From: Hyphococcus sp.
GTDB lineage: Bacteria; Pseudomonadota; Alphaproteobacteria; Caulobacterales; Parvularculaceae
Assembly (NCBI GenBank): GCA_021776415.1
Contig: JAJFFY010000081.1
Coordinates: 1 to 64,000 of the forward strand
DNA: 64,000 bases
Direction: 5' to 3'
Shown: positions 54,763 to 64,000 of the stretch, piece by piece
How positions within the stretch are numbered: the stretch's first letter is position 1
How the letters are laid out: every line of letters begins with the position of its first letter
Notes under the pieces: model-generated
Told to the model about the DNA's origin: nothing
Database searches by the model: none
Seen by the model: only the letters and a program-made list of their open reading frames with translations
Made by a program: the position numbers and the translations under genes

Positions 54763-54849
54763 GCCCAGGTGGCGGAATTGGTAGACGCGCTGCGTTCAGG
54801 TCGCAGTGGCCGAAAGGTCGTGGAAGTTCGAGTCTTCTCCTGGGCACCA
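54763..54849 (+). tRNA. tRNA-Leu (anticodon CAG)
   Basis: GCCCAGGTGGCGGAATTGGTAGACGCGCTGCGTTCAGGTCGCAGTGGCCGAAAGGTCGTGGAAGTTCGAGTCTTCTCCTGGGCACCA, with long variable arm. Confidence 0.97.
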
Positions 54850-54953
54850 GAACATAATCCTACCAAGTACGTTTCAGTAAAATAACCCAAATAAAACAAT
54901 TATATAGCTGTAATTCAGCACTTCGCAAGTGCGGTAATGTCCGGCTTGGTGTG

Positions 54954-55042
54954 TTGGTATCCAGCTAAATTGTTGGTATATTTGTTGGTAATAGCGGGTT
55001 GATGTTCCTATCTGTTAGGAGTGGTACCAACGGAAATACCAA
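54954..55042. promoter_or_regulatory. cluster of TTGGTA/TACCAA iterons (putative integrase arm sites)
   Basis: TTGGTAT at 54954 and 54973, TTGGTAA at 54985, TACCAA at 55025, ATACCAA at 55036. Confidence 0.6.
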
Positions 55043-55044
55043 CA

Positions 55045-56247
55045 ATGCCTCTCACTGATATTCAAGTTCGCAGCCTGAAGCCGGAAGCCAAGCCCTTTCG
55101 AAAGAGCGACGGTGGCGGGCTATTTGTGGAAGTCAGACCCAATGGCTCGAAGCTGTGGCGGATGGCCTATCGCCATGGTGGAAAGCAAAAGCTGCTTTCC
55201 TTTGGAGCGTATCCCGATACCACCCTCGCCAGGGCCCGAGCTAAACGCCAGCAAGCCAAAACACTACTCGCTGACGGGCTCGATCCAATGGCCAGTGCAA
55301 AGGCCGAGCAAGAACAGCAAAGAGCCCTGAGCGAGCACACATTCGGCAAAATCGCAGCCGAGCTTGTCGCCAAAGGCGAAAAGGAGGGGCTAGCCGCAAG
55401 AACAATCGAAAAGAAGCGGTGGGTGCTGAGCATGGCGAAAGCCGATCTCGGTAACCTACCGATTGAATCTATCACTGCTGCTGAAGTGCTAGCCGTTCTT
55501 CGCAAGGTGGAGGCGAAAGGGAACTATGAGACGGCGAAGCGTATGCGCTCAATCATTGGGCAAGTATTCCGTTACGCCGTCGCCACCGCGCGCGCCTCGA
55601 ATGACCCGACATTCGGGCTTCGTGGCGCCCTGATTACCCCTAAAACCGTACACTTGTCGGCGCTGACGGATTGGGAAGATTTTGCCGGATTGATTAGGGC
55701 GGTCTGGGGCTATCAGTCTGGCGCACCAGAAACGCGCACTGCACTGAAGCTGATGGCGCTTTTATATCCCCGCCCCGGCGAATTGAGGCAAGCCAAATGG
55801 CATGAATTTGATCTAGACGCCGCGACCTGGAATATTCCCAAAGAGCGCATGAAAATGCGCCGCCCTCATATCAAACCCCTACCCACACAAGCCATCGAAT
55901 TGCTCAAAGAATTGCGGTTGGTGAATCCCGATGGTGATTTGGTCTTCCCGTCAGCATGGGCGAACAGCAAGCCAATTAGCGACAACACTATGAACACCGC
56001 ATTGCGCCGGATGGGCTTCACGAGAGAAGAATGCACATCGCACGGATTTCGCGCCAGCGCCTCCAGCCTGCTGAATGAAAGCGGCAAGTGGTCGCCTGAC
56101 GCCATCGAGGCAGAACTTGCCCATGTCGGCGCGGACGAAATCCGCCGCGCCTACCACCGCGCCACATATTGGGATGAACGGGTGAAGATGGCTCAATGGT
56201 GGGCGGATAAAGTCGAAAGCGCGTGGAAAAATACTCAGACCACATAG
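55045..56247 (+). CDS. int: P4-type tyrosine recombinase/integrase (DUF4102 arm-binding domain)
   Basis: MPLTDIQVRSLKPEAKPFRKSDGGGLFVEVRPNGSKLWRMAYR; YPRPGELR, HGFRASASSLLNE, YHRATYWDERVKMAQWWADKV. Confidence 0.96.
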   Translation: MPLTDIQVRSLKPEAKPFRKSDGGGLFVEVRPNGSKLWRMAYRHGGKQKLLSFGAYPDTTLARARAKRQQAKTLLADGLDPMASAKAEQEQQRALSEHTFGKIAAELVAKGEKEGLAARTIEKKRWVLSMAKADLGNLPIESITAAEVLAVLRKVEAKGNYETAKRMRSIIGQVFRYAVATARASNDPTFGLRGALITPKTVHLSALTDWEDFAGLIRAVWGYQSGAPETRTALKLMALLYPRPGELRQAKWHEFDLDAATWNIPKERMKMRRPHIKPLPTQAIELLKELRLVNPDGDLVFPSAWANSKPISDNTMNTALRRMGFTREECTSHGFRASASSLLNESGKWSPDAIEAELAHVGADEIRRAYHRATYWDERVKMAQWWADKVESAWKNTQTT

Positions 56248-56303: not shown

Positions 56304-57005
56304 ATGGAAAGCATAGATTTTTGGAAGCTGTGCGACCAATTAAGCATTGTGCATGCCGCATTGCTTATCGTCGGTCATAACCCGTCAGAACACCAAGCCG
56401 TCGAGGATCAAGATTCAAGCCGTCAACCGGTTGGATATGACGGCGCGAAACACGCAATAATATCTGGATTAAGGAAAGAGAAGATCGAAGGTAAGTTGTT
56501 GTATGATCAGCCATATAACGATGACGGCGATCCATATTTAAGCGTTGTTCGATCATATGTTGATGTTGAGAGTCTTAAAGTGTGGCTATTATCCAAGAAT
56601 TTGAGGGAACACTTTTTCTTCTTTCCAGAAGCTAAGGTCAGCGAGTTTTTGGATAAAGATCACTCCAGATATTCTTCCAAGCTGGCCGCCGCTGTGACCG
56701 CATGGAACTGGCTTGACGACGAATCAAAGCTTGAAGGCAGGACGCCAAAACAGGCCGTTCAGAAATGGCTTCGCAAGAATGCTGCTGAGTACGGTATTTG
56801 CGATGAAGATGGTAAGCCCAATGAGTCGGTTGTTGCCAACATCTCTCAAATGGTGAATTGGCAAACAAAGGGCGGCGCCCCTCGCACCCCTACCAAGAAA
56901 GTTGCTTCCGATATATCTACTGGGCCGAAAACCCAAATGTCTGTATCCGATCCATCGTCTGCTTCTATGCAATCCTATGAAATGGATGACGATATACCAT
57001 TCTAA
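56304..57005 (+). CDS. hypothetical island protein with SSB-like C-terminal tip
   Basis: 233 aa; AAAVTAWNWLDDESKLEGRTPKQAVQKWLRKNAAEYGICDEDGKPNESVVANISQMVNWQTKGGAP, low-complexity linker, terminal YEMDDDIPF. Confidence 0.8.
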   Translation: MESIDFWKLCDQLSIVHAALLIVGHNPSEHQAVEDQDSSRQPVGYDGAKHAIISGLRKEKIEGKLLYDQPYNDDGDPYLSVVRSYVDVESLKVWLLSKNLREHFFFFPEAKVSEFLDKDHSRYSSKLAAAVTAWNWLDDESKLEGRTPKQAVQKWLRKNAAEYGICDEDGKPNESVVANISQMVNWQTKGGAPRTPTKKVASDISTGPKTQMSVSDPSSASMQSYEMDDDIPF

Positions 57006-57148: not shown

Positions 57149-57179
57149 TTATGCGACGCAACCAATCGGAGTCGCATAA
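57149..57179. promoter_or_regulatory. perfect 9-bp dyad overlapping alpA-like start codon
   Basis: TTATGCGAC-gcaaccaatcgga-GTCGCATAA, ATG at 57179-57181. Confidence 0.6.
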
Positions 57180-57397
57180 TGATCAACGCAGCTACACTAC
57201 CTCACACCGGCTTTGTCCGCCTTAAACATATTCTTTCCCCTGAAGGGCCTATCCCAGTTTCTAAATCCACATGGTGGGCGGGCGTGAAGGATGGGCGTTT
57301 TCCAAAACCGCTGAAGTTTGGCGCCCGCGTGACTGTGTGGCGGGTGGAAGAAATCCACGCGCTCATCGCTAACGGCGTTCCCGGCGATGGCGCGTAA
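57179..57397 (+). CDS. AlpA family HTH regulator/excisionase-like
   Basis: FVRLKHILSPEGPIPVSKSTWWAGVKDGRFPKPLKFGARVTVWRVEEIHALIANG. Confidence 0.9.
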   Translation: MINAATLPHTGFVRLKHILSPEGPIPVSKSTWWAGVKDGRFPKPLKFGARVTVWRVEEIHALIANGVPGDGA

Positions 57398-57848
57398 GCT
57401 GGTTGGTCGGTCTATCAGCATTCATCGCAGCTATCCTGTGAAAGACATTGCCGACGCCCTTCGCGTTCATAAGGGCACGGTGTTGCGGTGGATCAGAAAC
57501 GGTGATTTGATGCCCATCGATGACGGCAGGCCAATTCTTGTCCAAGGCAAAACGCTTCGCGCCTATCTGGAATGGCGTAAGCCGAAAAAGCAGAAATGCG
57601 CACTGGACGAGTGGTATTGCTTGAAGTGTCGCGAGCCGCGCCATGCCGCCTTCGAGGAAGGCGAGATCGTGTCAGCCAATCGCCGAACTTGCAACATCCG
57701 GGCGCTTTGCTGCCAGTGCGCAACGGTGATGCATAAGCGGTTTTCAATACCTACCCTCACTAACCTTACCGCGTCCGTACGCCTTTCGGCTCAACATCAC
57801 CTCAAACACCTAATTGAATGCAAACAACCCTGCCTGAGTGTTCACTAA
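57387..57848 (+). CDS. HTH (excisionase-like) protein with C-terminal zinc-ribbon-like Cys cluster
   Basis: YPVKDIADALRVHKGTVLRWIRNGDLMPIDDGRPILVQGKTLRAYL; WYCLKCREPR...LCCQCATVMHKR. Confidence 0.8.
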   Translation: MARKLVGRSISIHRSYPVKDIADALRVHKGTVLRWIRNGDLMPIDDGRPILVQGKTLRAYLEWRKPKKQKCALDEWYCLKCREPRHAAFEEGEIVSANRRTCNIRALCCQCATVMHKRFSIPTLTNLTASVRLSAQHHLKHLIECKQPCLSVH

Positions 57849-57865: not shown

Positions 57866-58966
57866 ATGGCGAAGTTTCATGCAAAGAACGAGCGTATTAA
57901 GCAAAAATATTTGACCTGGCTAGAAGACGCGAGGCGCAAGGACGTGAAGACGACGACGCAGGTTGCCGCTGCGATTTCCCTGTTTGAACGGTCAACGCGC
58001 CACCGCGATTTTGCCGCCTTCCACTTTGAACAGGCGCGCAAATTCAAGGGTGATCTGGAAGCCGCCAAGAATGAACGTACCGGCAAGCCGTTATCGCAGG
58101 CGACGATCCGCGCGCGCCTCAACATGGTCAAAGCGTTCTTTGAATGGTTGTCAGATCAGCCCGGCTACAAAAGCAAAGTCGACTATACGGACGCCGCATA
58201 TTTCAGTCCGTCGGCAAGGCAAGACCGTATCGCCAGCGCCGTTCGCGATACGCCTGTCCCAACGATTGATCAAATCAGGCATGTAGTAACCACCGCGCCG
58301 GATCAATCAGCGGTGGAAAAGAGAGATCGTGCTTTGATCGCATTCACCCTGCTGACAGGCATGAGGGACGCCGCTATCGCGTCAATGCCATTAGGAAAGG
58401 TGAACCTAGCCCGTCGCGAAGTGTTTCAAGATGCGCGCATGGTAGTAACGAAAAACGCAAAAACCATGACCACTTTCTTCTTTCCCGTGGGCGACGAATT
58501 TGTAGAGATTATCAAAGACTGGATCGACTATCTGAAAACAGAATTGCTATTCGCCGAAACTGACCCACTTTTTCCACAACCGGAAATGAAGCATGACCGC
58601 GATAGTTCCTTTAAAGTCGCAGGCCTGAAACGCGCCTACTGGCGGGATGCATCGGCGATTCGCAGAATTTTTCGGGAACGGTTTGAGGCGGCAGGATTGC
58701 CCTATTTCCACCCGCACAGTATCCGCAAGACGCTGGCGCACCTAGCTTACGAATTAAATTTAGGACTGAGAGAATCAAAAGCGTGGAGCCAAAACCTTGG
58801 CCATGAAAAGCCAATGACGACGTGGACTAGCTACGGCAAAATTGACGACAATCAGACTGGGGAAATCATGGCCGGGTTCGCCACGTTAGACCATTCGGCA
58901 GGCGACTCACCACCACCCGAAGTCATGGAATGGCTTGCAAAGGTGACAAAGAATCGGCAACTCTGA
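57866..58966 (+). CDS. tyrosine-type recombinase, second integrase
   Basis: TGMRDAAI, HPHSIRKTLAHL, LGHEKPMTTWTSYGKI give R...HxxR...H...Y. Confidence 0.92.
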   Translation: MAKFHAKNERIKQKYLTWLEDARRKDVKTTTQVAAAISLFERSTRHRDFAAFHFEQARKFKGDLEAAKNERTGKPLSQATIRARLNMVKAFFEWLSDQPGYKSKVDYTDAAYFSPSARQDRIASAVRDTPVPTIDQIRHVVTTAPDQSAVEKRDRALIAFTLLTGMRDAAIASMPLGKVNLARREVFQDARMVVTKNAKTMTTFFFPVGDEFVEIIKDWIDYLKTELLFAETDPLFPQPEMKHDRDSSFKVAGLKRAYWRDASAIRRIFRERFEAAGLPYFHPHSIRKTLAHLAYELNLGLRESKAWSQNLGHEKPMTTWTSYGKIDDNQTGEIMAGFATLDHSAGDSPPPEVMEWLAKVTKNRQL

Positions 58967-58968
58967 AG

Positions 58969-61900
58969 TTAAAGATATCGAAGCGAGATTTCTGCCTGAG
59001 CAAGCACCAGTTGAACCGCGTCATTAGATAGATCAGGCGGGTAACCGTATTTTTTCAATATGCGTTTGACAAGAATGCGCATATGGGCGCGCGCGCTTTC
59101 TTTACGATGCCAGTCAACGCTTGCATTGCTACGAAGTTTTTCGAGGAGTTCATGAGCGATAAGCCTTAAGCGCTCATTCCCCATGGCTTCAACAGCGCTC
59201 TTATTCTCCGCTAAAGCGTCGTAAAAAGCCTTCTCTTCCGGACTTAACCCAAGTTCTTCGCCTCGCGCTTTTGATGCTTTGAGGTCTTTGGCTATGGTTA
59301 TCAGTTCCTGGATCATTTCAAGCGCTGAAATAGCATTTGCGTGATAGCGTGCGACGGCGTCTTCAAGCCTCGTCGAGAACGCACGCGCCTCAACATGATT
59401 GGTTTTTGATCTGGCGGAGATTTCGCCATTCAAAAGCTTCTTTAGCGCTTCGAGCGCCAGGTTTTTGTGTTTTAGATTCTGTACCTCTTCGAGAAACTCA
59501 TCGGACAGGATCGATATATCCGGCGCATCCATTCCTACAGACTGTAGGATGTCAACGATCTCAGATGAGGCAACGGCCAGGTCGATGAGTTGCTGGATGG
59601 CGAACGTGCGGTCTTGGGTGGAAATTTTCCCGGTGGCGGTGGTTTTCTGCAGGGTCGCCCTTACTGCTTGGAAGAAGCCGATTTCGTCGCGCACAGTTGC
59701 CGCATAGTCGCTCGCGGCGGCAAGGGCGAAGGCCTTTGAGAGATTAAGCACCAAGTCATTGAACGCGCGGTGCGCTTTTTTCTTCTCATCCTCACGGGTT
59801 TTTTGCGCCGCTTCCCGTTCTTGCCATTGAAGAACCCAATCCAGCGCCTTTGCGAGCGCTGCCAGTTTTTGTTGCGGCGCGCCTGTCAAACCGTCGGAAT
59901 AATCATGCCCGTGAAAAATCAGGCGTGTGCGCTCGAAACATTCCTGCAGCGCTGCAACGGCGTCTTCCTCATTGATGCCTGTTTGCGAACGATCTGTTTC
60001 GCTATAATCGGCAAGCGCTTTTTTCAGGTTCTGCGCAATCCCGATATAGTCAACAATCAGGCCGCCTGGCTTGTTTTTGAAAACCCGGTTCACGCGCGCA
60101 ATAGCCTGCATAAGGCCATGGCCGCGCATGGGTTTGTCGACATACATCGTGTTCATGCACGGCGCGTCAAAGCCGGTCAGCCACATGTCGCGCACAATCA
60201 CTAGCTTAAGCGGATCGTTTGGGTCTCTGGCCCGTTTGGCGAGGGCGTCGCGGCGGCGTTTATTGCCGATATGCGGTTGCCAATCCAGCGGATCAGACGC
60301 CGCGCCGCTCATCACGATTTTAATCGCGCCAGTTTCGTCATCGTCGGTGTGCCAGTTCGGGCGGAGCGCAACAAATTCATTATAGAGCGCAACGCAGATG
60401 CGGCGGCTCATGCAGACAGCCATGGCTTTTCCGTCGAGGGCTTCGATGCGCCGCTCCAGGTGGTTGACCAAATCCGCCGCTACTTGCTTCAGGCGTTTAT
60501 TCGCACCGACAAGCGCCTCTACGCTTGACCATTTGGCTTTGAATTTTTCGGCTTCGGTAAGCGTATCGTCTTCAGTAAGCGCTTCAATTTCTGCGTCGAT
60601 GAGCGGTTTCTGGTAATCGTCCAGTTCGATCCGTGCAAGGCGGCTTTCGTAGTAGATCGGCACGGTGGCGCCATCGATCACCGCGCGCGTGATGTCGTAG
60701 ATGTCAATATAGTCACCAAAGATCGCGGGCGTATTGACGTCGCTGCCCTCAATCGGCGTGCCTGTGAAGCCGATAAAGGAGGCGTTGGGCAGGGCTTGGC
60801 GAATATAGTGCGCATAGCCATAGCGTTTGACGCCGGAGCTTGCGTCGATCTTCGCCGAGAGGCCATATTGGCTGCGGTGGGCTTCGTCGGCGATGATGAT
60901 GACGTTTTTGCGGTCGGTCAGTAACGGGAAGTTTTCCTCGCCCGGCTCCGGTGAGAATTTTTGCACTGTCGAGAAAATGACGCCGCCCGCCGATGCGTCC
61001 AGCAACTCTTTCAAGTCTTCGCGGCTTGTCGCCTGTTTCGGCGTCTGACGGATCAGATCGCGGCAAGTGCTGAACGTGCCGAAGAGCTGGTCATCGAGAT
61101 CATTGCGGTCAGTCAGTATGAGAAGCGTCGGATTCTCCAACGCCTTTGCATTGACGGCTAACCCGGCAAAGAACGCCATCAGGAAGCTTTTGCCAGAGCC
61201 TTGCGTATGCCAGATAACGCCGATCTTGCGGTCGCCGTTGGGGGCGGTCGCCTCGACGGCTTCGCGCAAGGCTTTCTTTGCGCCGTGATATTGATGGTAA
61301 CCGGCGATAATCTTGAACAACCCATCGCCCCTGTCGCCAAAGACGGTGAAGTCGCGGATGATGTCGAGGAAAACCTCGCGGTTGAACACCCCCTGCAACA
61401 GAGTTTCCATCTCCGGCGTGCCGGGTTCGGCGTAGGTTTCGCCGTCGATAGTTCGCCATGGCATGAAGCGTTCTTCATTGGCGGTGAGGGAGCCGATGCG
61501 GGCCTGCATGCCGTCGGAAGTCACCAGAATAGCGTTGGTGCGAAACAGGCTGGGGATTTGTTCTTTATAGGTTTGAAGCTGATTGTAGGCGCCCTTCAGC
61601 GTCGCGTTTTCGTCAGCGGCGTTTTTCAACTCCAGCACCGCGACGGGCAAGCCGTTCAAAAAGCAAACCAGATCGGGGCGGCGGTTGCGCTGACCTTCAA
61701 TCACGGTGAACTGGTTCGTTACCAGCCAGTCATTCGCCCCCACATTGTCAAAGTCGATCAGCCAGACGCGGTCGCTTTTAATCGCACCATCATCGGCGCG
61801 ATATTCAACGCCGACGCCATCGGTGATGAGGCGATGAATACGCCGGTTTTCCTCGATCAGATTTGGTTTGTCCGTGGTCAGAACACGGGCCAGCACTGCC

Positions 61901-62103
61901 TCTATCGCGTCATCGGGGACGTTCGGATTCAGCGCGCGCACTGCCCGGTCAAAACGTTTGGTGAGGATCACATCGCCAAAGCTGGTGCGCTGCGGCGCAG
62001 CCCCATCGGGTGAGATCGCGCCGCTATCGAGATACACCCAGCCGAGACTTTTAAGCGTTTCAATGCCCGCCTGTTCAACGTGGTCTTCGGAGAAACCACT
62101 CAT
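58969..62103 (-). CDS. hsdR: type I restriction endonuclease subunit R
   Basis: [61 protein letters not shown]-like helicase motifs. Confidence 0.96.
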
Positions 62104-63380
62104 GCCGCCACCATCGCTTTGGCGCCGGCCGCGCGGACGTGGCCTGACATGAGTTTGGGCAGGAGGTAGTCGCGAGTTTGGGCGAGGGTTTGGTTTTCTT
62201 TGCTTCTGTGCCGAATATGCTCAAACATCACTTTGGAAAGGCTGTCGAATGCTTTGAGGATGGGATTAGGTGGGAGAGCGAACTCATAGGCCGCCAATGC
62301 CGAAGCCTGCGCGCGCTGGCGACCAGATGTTCCGGTCATACTTTGGATGGCGGCGACTTTAAACTCGGGATGGCGCGTTAGGCAATAAGCCAAAACTTTT
62401 GGGACATCCGATCGAGTTCTCAAAACGATAAATTCTGTTGAGCCCCAACCGATGGTTTGGGTGTCTGGTAAGAAATCAACAAAGGCCGCTTTGCCGTTCT
62501 CAAGGCAAGGGGTTATTCGAGCAAGTAGTGCGTCGCCATTCCGAAATTTCATCCCAGATCCAAATTTGCGAGGTATTGGGGGGCTAGCAATTGACCCTTT
62601 TGTCGGCAAAGAACTCATATCAGAATAGAGCGATAAATCTCCTTTTCTGAGCGTTTCTTTGGGGTTGAAGTCTATAAGATCTCTTGCTGCACCAAGCACC
62701 CACCCCACCGGCAAGCCGTTGTCGCCGAGTGTTTCGGGGAAGAGGGCGGCGAGTTTGGCGGCTTCGTCAGGGTTCTGAATAAGACCGCCGAGGATTTGGC
62801 CCGCGTCGCGCGCGCCCTCCATCTTGCGTTTAACCGGGCCGAAATCGACAAACCAGTCGCGGAACAGCGCCTGCGCCATAGCCTCCAGCGTCTCATTCGC
62901 CCGCCGGTTCAACTCGATCTTGTCGTCGAGGGCGGAGAGGAAGTTGGCGATCTGCGTTTCAGAACCGCCGATACTTTGTGGCCAGTATATGCCGTTAAGT
63001 TGATTAGCTGAAACGTTTGGAAACGTAGAGCCTGTCGCCGCCGCCAATAGGTCGGGTAAGTAATATTCTACGACAGCACGCACGATTCTATTCAGGTCGC
63101 TTCGTTTGTGACGTATCGCAGCTATACCCCGCCCGATAGCATATCGTTGATCCGCCCAGTTCATTCGCCCAGTGGTTGAGCCGCGAACACAAAATAGTAG
63201 ATCACCAGGTTCGGCTACTTTTCTTACTTCTGTTGTAAACTGAATAGGCGTAGGATGATGACTTCCAAATTCGGTCGGACCATTAAGAAGCGGAAGCCCA
63301 TCGCCAAAAACATTGCAGGCATTACCAGGTGGGGACTGCCCCATTATTACTTCAGCGTGATCTGAAAGTGTCTCACCCAT
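62100..63380 (-). CDS. hsdS: type I restriction subunit S (two half-TRD architecture)
   Basis: [23 protein letters not shown]...[40 protein letters not shown]...[19 protein letters not shown] overlap with hsdR. Confidence 0.94.
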
Positions 63381-63483
63381 CCTCGCGCACTCCCGCCAGC
63401 GCCGCCTCGATCCGCGCTTCCAGCTTGCGCCCCTCAGTGAATTGCTCCGCCAGCCTCTTGTGCGGCGCTGTAGCATTTTCCAT
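63373..63483 (-). CDS. 36-aa ORF translationally coupled to both Fic gene and hsdS
   Basis: [41 protein letters not shown] with upstream Fic stop, ATGGGTGA overlap with hsdS start. Confidence 0.6.
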   Translation of the reverse strand: MENATAPHKRLAEQFTEGRKLEARIEAALAGVREDG

Positions 63484-64000
63484 TACCGATTCCCCACGCT
63501 GATAAAAAGCTCGGCCAGCGCTTCATTGATATAATAATTATTCCGGCCCTGGCGTATCTTGGTCAAAAGCCCCGCCTCGGCAAGAAGGTCCAGATATTTC
63601 GTCGCCGTCGGGCGCGAGACGCCGAGGTCTTTTTGCACAAACTCCACCCTTGTATAGGGGTGGCGAAACAAATTATTCAGCAAGTCCTGGCTGTAGATGT
63701 TTTTGTCCGCCAGCACCCCGTCCCGCATGGCGCTTTTCAACCCGGCCATTTGCGCACGCATGCCTTTCACCAGCCTGATGGTGGCATGCGCAGTTTCGGC
63801 GACGGCCTCTAGTAAAAAAACCACCCATTCTTCCCACGCTTTTTGCAGGTCTTCGGGGGCTGCCTCCCTTGGCGCCTGCAACAGACGGTAATAATCGCCC
63901 TTGTGCGCATTGATGGCGCGGCTGAGATAGAGGATAGGCGTTTCAAGCAGCCCCGCCTTGCACAGGTAGAGCACGTTCAACATCCGTCCAACCCGGCCAT
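63483..64000 (-). CDS. Fic family protein, C-terminal portion with wHTH (5' truncated by window edge)
   Basis: Frame opens GRVGRMLNVLYL (end of HPFxxGNGRxGR motif), SQDLLNNLFRHPYTRVEFVQKDLGVSRPTATKYLDLLAEAGLLTKIRQGRNNYYIN. Confidence 0.92.
   Translation of the reverse strand, partial: GRVGRMLNVLYLCKAGLLETPILYLSRAINAHKGDYYRLLQAPREAAPEDLQKAWEEWVVFLLEAVAETAHATIRLVKGMRAQMAGLKSAMRDGVLADKNIYSQDLLNNLFRHPYTRVEFVQKDLGVSRPTATKYLDLLAEAGLLTKIRQGRNNYYINEALAELFISVGNR

Follow-up and report, generated by a model that had tools for sequence, protein, structure and literature searches.

The gene treated here, called X, belongs to a previously unannotated family found in tRNA-inserted islands with restriction and defence cargo. 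Its product ends in an SSB-type tail, and the SSB of the same genome, which ends GGQSYEMDDDIPF, has its last 11 residues in common with X. From these sequences we propose, with an even chance of being right, that X would be an accessory of the island's integrase operon that shows a copy of the host SSB tail and so recruits the proteins that bind SSB (the SSB partners). The first-pass annotation of this DNA had described an SSB-type tip (YEMDDDIPF, then the stop) on a protein with no evident OB fold. That observation is confirmed, and it is stronger than first described. Its interpretation (redirection of SSB partners to the island, or a decoy for nucleases) is partly supported as a whole: homologues, gene order, the structure model and the match to the host SSB bear out the tip, the non-SSB nature of X and its link to an integrase. 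Positions refer to the window, the whole stretch of 64,000 nucleotides that was analysed, unless the contig is named (Table 1).

Table 1. Features of the X island in the window
Feature	Position	Strand	Basis or remark
tRNA-Leu(CAG), insertion site	54763..54849	+	candidate left att at its 3' end
Three TGTTGGTA repeats, probable integrase arm sites	54948..54994 (54952, 54971, 54983)	+	
int1, arm-type tyrosine integrase	55021..56247	+	PF13356, PF22022, PF00589
Gene X	56304..57005	+	ORF, ATG start, 233 aa, C-terminus SMQSYEMDDDIPF followed by stop
X, N-terminal alpha/beta domain (residues 1-108), possibly winged-helix-like	56304..56627	+	AlphaFold2
X, C-terminal helical domain (residues 112-194), ends in NWxxxGGAPxT	56637..56885	+	alignment A6
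X, linker, Ser/Thr/Pro-rich, disordered, not conserved	56886..56969	+	pLDDT 43-53; pN 0.40 vs L003
X, SSB-type tail QSYEMDDDIPF	56970..57002	+	identical to last 11 residues of host SSB (G000:C76, L040)
AlpA-family regulator	57179..57397	+	PF05930, E 1.4e-5
HTH_17 protein with Cys-rich C-terminal part, member of conserved module	57387..57848	+	PF12728, E 2.2e-8
int2, second tyrosine recombinase of module	57866..58966	+	PF00589, E 3.2e-13
Cargo, type I restriction R subunit	58969..62103	-	Pfam
Cargo, type I restriction S subunit	62100..63476	-	Pfam

The island and the X family

The start of X is 56 bp from the stop of int1, and the AlpA-family gene lies downstream, so that X does stand right after int and before alpA, as first annotated. 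In addition to the three TGTTGGTA repeats next to the tRNA, two further copies occur at contig positions 66712 and 66724, and beside them an imperfect repeat of the tRNA end (contig ~66784-66808) is the right att candidate. With TGTTGGTA repeats near both ends and the imperfect tRNA-end copy on the right, the length of the island would be ~12 kb. We did not find an exact 15-base att repeat for it. The M gene of the type I restriction cargo is beyond the end of the window.

Profile searches placed X in 26 of 397 genomes at the level of the host order; for the class the count is 7 of 386, and for the phylum 5 of 399, fragments and weak matches included. The phage records searched contain no X. 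The only plasmid match is a distant one, in Sinorhizobium pSymB, again between integrase and AlpA, and the one viral contig that matches X has an integrase itself. The gene order of the islands is integrase, X, AlpA and, in part of them, an HTH protein and a second recombinase. A linkage to integrases had been raised for the family and holds: an integrase lies directly upstream of X on the same strand in 28 of the 31 loci (locus counts were tallied by hand from tables). AlpA follows X in 26 loci (for one locus, according to the annotation in its record), a second recombinase is present in 18, and a tRNA gene adjoins the end of the element in 26. In the sampled islands, the cargo comprises type I, III and IIG restriction-modification and the Hma system; conjugation genes were not seen in X islands.

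Protein X is not built like SSB

The AlphaFold2 model of X (27 homologues) has a mean pLDDT of 80.9 and contains two domains, with block pLDDT mostly 84-97. Modelled alone, the N-domain (residues 1-108) reaches a pLDDT of 90.0 and a pTM of 0.82. The protein outside tail and linker had been taken for helical; this stands for approximately residues 125-184, the only all-helical stretch, but not for residues 1-108, which form an alpha/beta domain. The C-terminal helical domain is the most conserved part of X (61% mean column identity in alignment A6), and N185, W186, G190 and G191 are invariant in that alignment. The disorder that had been ascribed to the Ser/Pro/Thr-rich linker is reproduced in the model, and the tail has a pLDDT of ~50 or lower.

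Neither an OB fold nor a beta barrel is present in the AlphaFold2 models of the whole X and of the N-domain alone, and there is no meaningful family match for X in Pfam, NCBIfam, PHROGs or PADLOC (the best PHROG match, for one member, has an E of 0.0046). On the model, X is a non-SSB protein. Structure-based fold searches with X gave nothing below E 0.05. The N-domain has no match among PDB folds with E <0.2, and its top non-significant matches are mostly winged-helix (PadR, RQC domain, TFE). Topology and context suggest that the core of X may bind DNA, a guess only, since the fold matches are non-significant. A sequence match in the PDB to an ABC transporter permease fusion (best E 0.0044) was rejected as chance.

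The tip is an add-on under selection

The X tip has the features of an SSB-Ct: a free C-terminal Phe, a Pro before it, acidic residues upstream and a disordered linker. In SSB partners, the free C-terminal Phe is taken by a pocket with basic residues; loss of the Phe abolishes partner binding and the change of Pro to Ser weakens it (PMC10164576). An acidic...PF tip occurs at the C-terminus of 19 of the 28 full-length members of X. Its conservation is good within the host order (18 of 20) but does not extend to the family, nine of the 28 homologues being tipless, among them seven of the eight from outside the order. Most tipless X stop directly after GGAPKTP. Since such homologues exist, the tip is no defining part of the family but an addition found mainly in a single bacterial order; and because they also live in ordinary islands, the core can function without the tip. 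On the tree of X cores, tip presence and absence need 7 changes, at least 3 of which are forced by well-supported branches. Some tips are degenerate (NSIPF, EEPDPF, EEPPFL). The homologue of Sinorhizobium meliloti pSymB (CP090106.1; locus L016, 7974-8816) ends in EDEEPPFL, one residue beyond the Phe, which should deprive the partners of the free carboxyl group that they need.

Three observations argue that the tip is not due to chance. It stands at the very C-terminus of homologues that have diverged to 29-74% identity, though the linker, which varies from almost none to ~45 residues across the family, is unalignable. Among 12,914 open frames in 695 kb (stop-terminated frames of ≥30 aa), the tip pattern fits 18, and all 18 are X. 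In the comparison of the window's X with L003, its closest relative, pN is 0.00 over the last 9 residues and 0.40 in the linker; other close pairs offer few tip codons and are less clear. Judged by such codon comparisons, the tip is under purifying selection in homologues.

The tip follows the SSB of the resident host

As far as the sequences tell, X tips resemble the SSB of their resident host more than other SSBs, with exceptions. The sharing reaches beyond the generic DDDIPF: in other hosts, X and SSB have GPREDFS, SFEL or KRSF in common. Pairs of X and SSB tails are GPREDFSADLDGEIPF / GPREDFSADLNDEIPF, GPREDFSHNMDDDIPF / GPREDFSQDMDDDIPF and KRSFLEDLDSEAPF / KRSFAADLEDDIPF, and in two further pairs the X tail and the SSB tail are identical (SFELDDEIPF in one pair, DYDLDDDIPF in the other). 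In the 19 tip-bearing genomes, the mean BLOSUM score over the last 14 residues is 43.3 with the own SSB, 37.7 with SSBs of the same family and 28.7 with those of other families. For the stretch that precedes the generic motif (positions 7-14 counted from the C-terminus), the corresponding values are 14.6, 10.1 and 1.5. When hosts were shuffled, over all of them or within families, at most 1 in 20,000 shuffles equalled the observed match.

One family, f3, was searched after the pattern had been seen, and it yielded two new X for which the host SSB could be read. For each of them, the own SSB is the top match among 30 (PPRETFPPDLDDEIPF / GPKESFPADLDDEIPF and HLREDFSASLDDEIPF / APREDFSANLDDEIPF). 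With all 21 X, and likewise with one X per genus (16), none of 100,000 shuffles reached the host match. In four genomes the own SSB is not the best match: G100 (rank 23 of 30), G1090 (rank 18 of 30), G071 and G040.

Recruitment, blocking or sensing

As a recruitment hub, the SSB tail is essential to bacteria; it is read by HolC/chi, PriA, RecO, RecG, RecQ, ExoI, DnaG and other SSB-interacting proteins. HolC is encoded in all 16 host genomes tested, and RecO in the genome of the window. We infer that X binds SSB partners, that its core contacts DNA and that the tail serves recruitment, not inhibition. The folded core would act on the island itself, most likely on island DNA or on the integrase complex, and the flexible linker would display the copy of the host tail. 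X could then bring one or more SSB partners to the island while it excises, replicates as an excised circle or reintegrates, because the pockets of these partners read the same tail on SSB; such recruitment would need neither single-stranded DNA nor SSB on site. More generally, the islands may repeatedly equip a non-SSB protein with the tail of the resident SSB and keep it tuned to the host, drawing SSB partners to island DNA independently of SSB and of single-stranded DNA, a generalization that we consider equally apt to prove right or wrong.

Blocking of the SSB partners by X is less likely than their recruitment. The X tail would in that case fill the pockets of partners such as RecG, RecO, ExoI or RecQ, and so keep repair or nucleases from acting against the excised island, or against an infecting competitor. 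The evidence from the tail (host match, X-specific tip) is the same as for recruitment, the cargo is anti-phage, and an abundant protein with a free copy of the tail would be a competitor. But the tail is monovalent unless X oligomerises, while SSB is an abundant tetramer, and X would therefore have to be highly expressed; X is in the operon of the integrase, and integrase operons rarely are. The two conserved domains of the core would also be superfluous for a pure decoy. Altogether we regard blocking as rather unlikely.

A little less probable again is a regulatory use, with X a DNA-binding regulator or directionality factor that would sense SSB-coated strands or stalled forks by competing for SSB partners, thereby coupling excision to replication stress. 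The place of X between int and alpA, with other regulators near, is consistent with this, as are the winged-helix-like fold matches, non-significant as they are; direct signs of sensing are absent, however, and sequence does not separate sensing from recruitment.

Origin of the tip

In the residues shared by X and SSB, synonymous codons agree at 0.32 between X and its own ssb and at 0.40 between X and other ssb genes. Since the codons of X and of its own ssb are no more alike than in the cross comparison, a recent capture of the 3' end of ssb at the DNA level was rejected. An origin of the tip through insertion beside ssb was rejected too, since X and ssb are found on separate contigs or at a great distance from each other. 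Synonymous sites are close to saturated: even in the closest pair (the X of the window and L003), the core has a pS of 0.91. The tip would thus go back to an old capture or to co-adaptation at the protein level, which are not separable because synonymous sites saturate fast.

Whether descent of X together with its hosts explains the whole pattern was examined by AU tests on the tree of X cores: host families f1 (p 0.014) and f5 (p 0.0004) are rejected as clades, and f2, g475, g16 and f4 are not rejected at 0.05. In f1 and f5, the cores are not sorted by host family, yet the tips follow the host. Repeated independent capture is likely on these trees, but it is not proven group by group, because the clades of f1 and f5 are rejected and those of the four other groups are not. 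The simplest account is that the islands move between hosts and that the tail is re-acquired or re-tuned.

The tips might also be passive remnants without function, left by recombination with the 3' end of the host ssb. The likeness to the resident SSB does extend to linker-like residues, for example GPREDFS, and tips have been gained and lost on the tree. Codon agreement between X and ssb does not exceed chance, however, so that any capture must be old, and still the amino acids have been kept; and in the closest pair the substitutions that changed the linker spared the tip. A remnant is quite improbable. That X is merely a divergent SSB is hardly conceivable: the tail itself and a single weak NCBIfam SSB match (E 0.023, in 1 of the 14 members) are all that point to it, whereas the Pfam SSB family matches 0 of the 14 and the model lacks a beta barrel.

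Relation to known systems

X shares with the bacterial SSB-Ct the terminal motif, the free C-terminal Phe, the flexible linker and the very tail of the resident host. Unlike SSB, it has no OB fold and is borne by a mobile island. Mobile elements hijack replication hubs through short motifs, as by the sliding-clamp-binding motifs on phage and transposon proteins. There, as in X, a short motif on a protein of the element copies the ligand of a host hub, but what X copies is the SSB tail, in a form that fits the resident host. The X islands resemble tRNA/tmRNA-inserted islands such as the intY/AlpA islands of Pseudomonas (PMC12595487) in their insertion at a tRNA end, tyrosine integrase, AlpA, restriction/defence cargo and lack of any conjugation genes seen; they differ in having X between int and alpA and, often, the HTH protein and the second recombinase. 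Searching the text of that paper turned up no mention of SSB.

Each of the parts is of a known kind: the SSB tail, the tRNA island that has AlpA and defence genes, and the mimicry of motifs by mobile elements. Searches of the open-access literature turned up neither their combination, a family without annotation that is linked to integrases and bears an SSB tail matched to the host, nor any SSB-tail mimic in mobile elements, which leaves novelty unproven. If the proposed recruitment is true, these islands plug into the SSB hub with a tail in the host's own version that sits on an unrelated core, and the residues upstream of DDDIPF, usually regarded as free linker, carry host-specific information. 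The tail match may also serve as a sequence signature of the residence time of an element in a host lineage.

Other genes of the islands

The only clear exceptions to the order of int and X are L045, L050 and L070. In L045 (12973-13662 and 5423-6700), X is at the end of the island opposite the int1-like gene and on the other strand. The HTH protein and int2 accompany int1, X and AlpA in 18 of the 31 loci. It is unusual for a single small island to have two recombinases. The HTH protein with the Cys-rich C-terminal part has a weak PADLOC match to mad1 (E 1e-6). In elements without the HTH/int2 pair, a protein of ~195-209 aa that starts with MGG(Y/L)GSG is conserved after alpA (L061, 8970-9563; L069, 7982-8563; L071; L042); it has no match in Pfam or PADLOC. 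Between the hsdS-like and hsdM genes of the window island lies an ORF of 373 aa (contig 63483-64604, with 63483-64000 inside the window), whose start (ETLAIYKALVEAKAGLAELKG) resembles, as judged by eye, the N-terminus of the Fic family.
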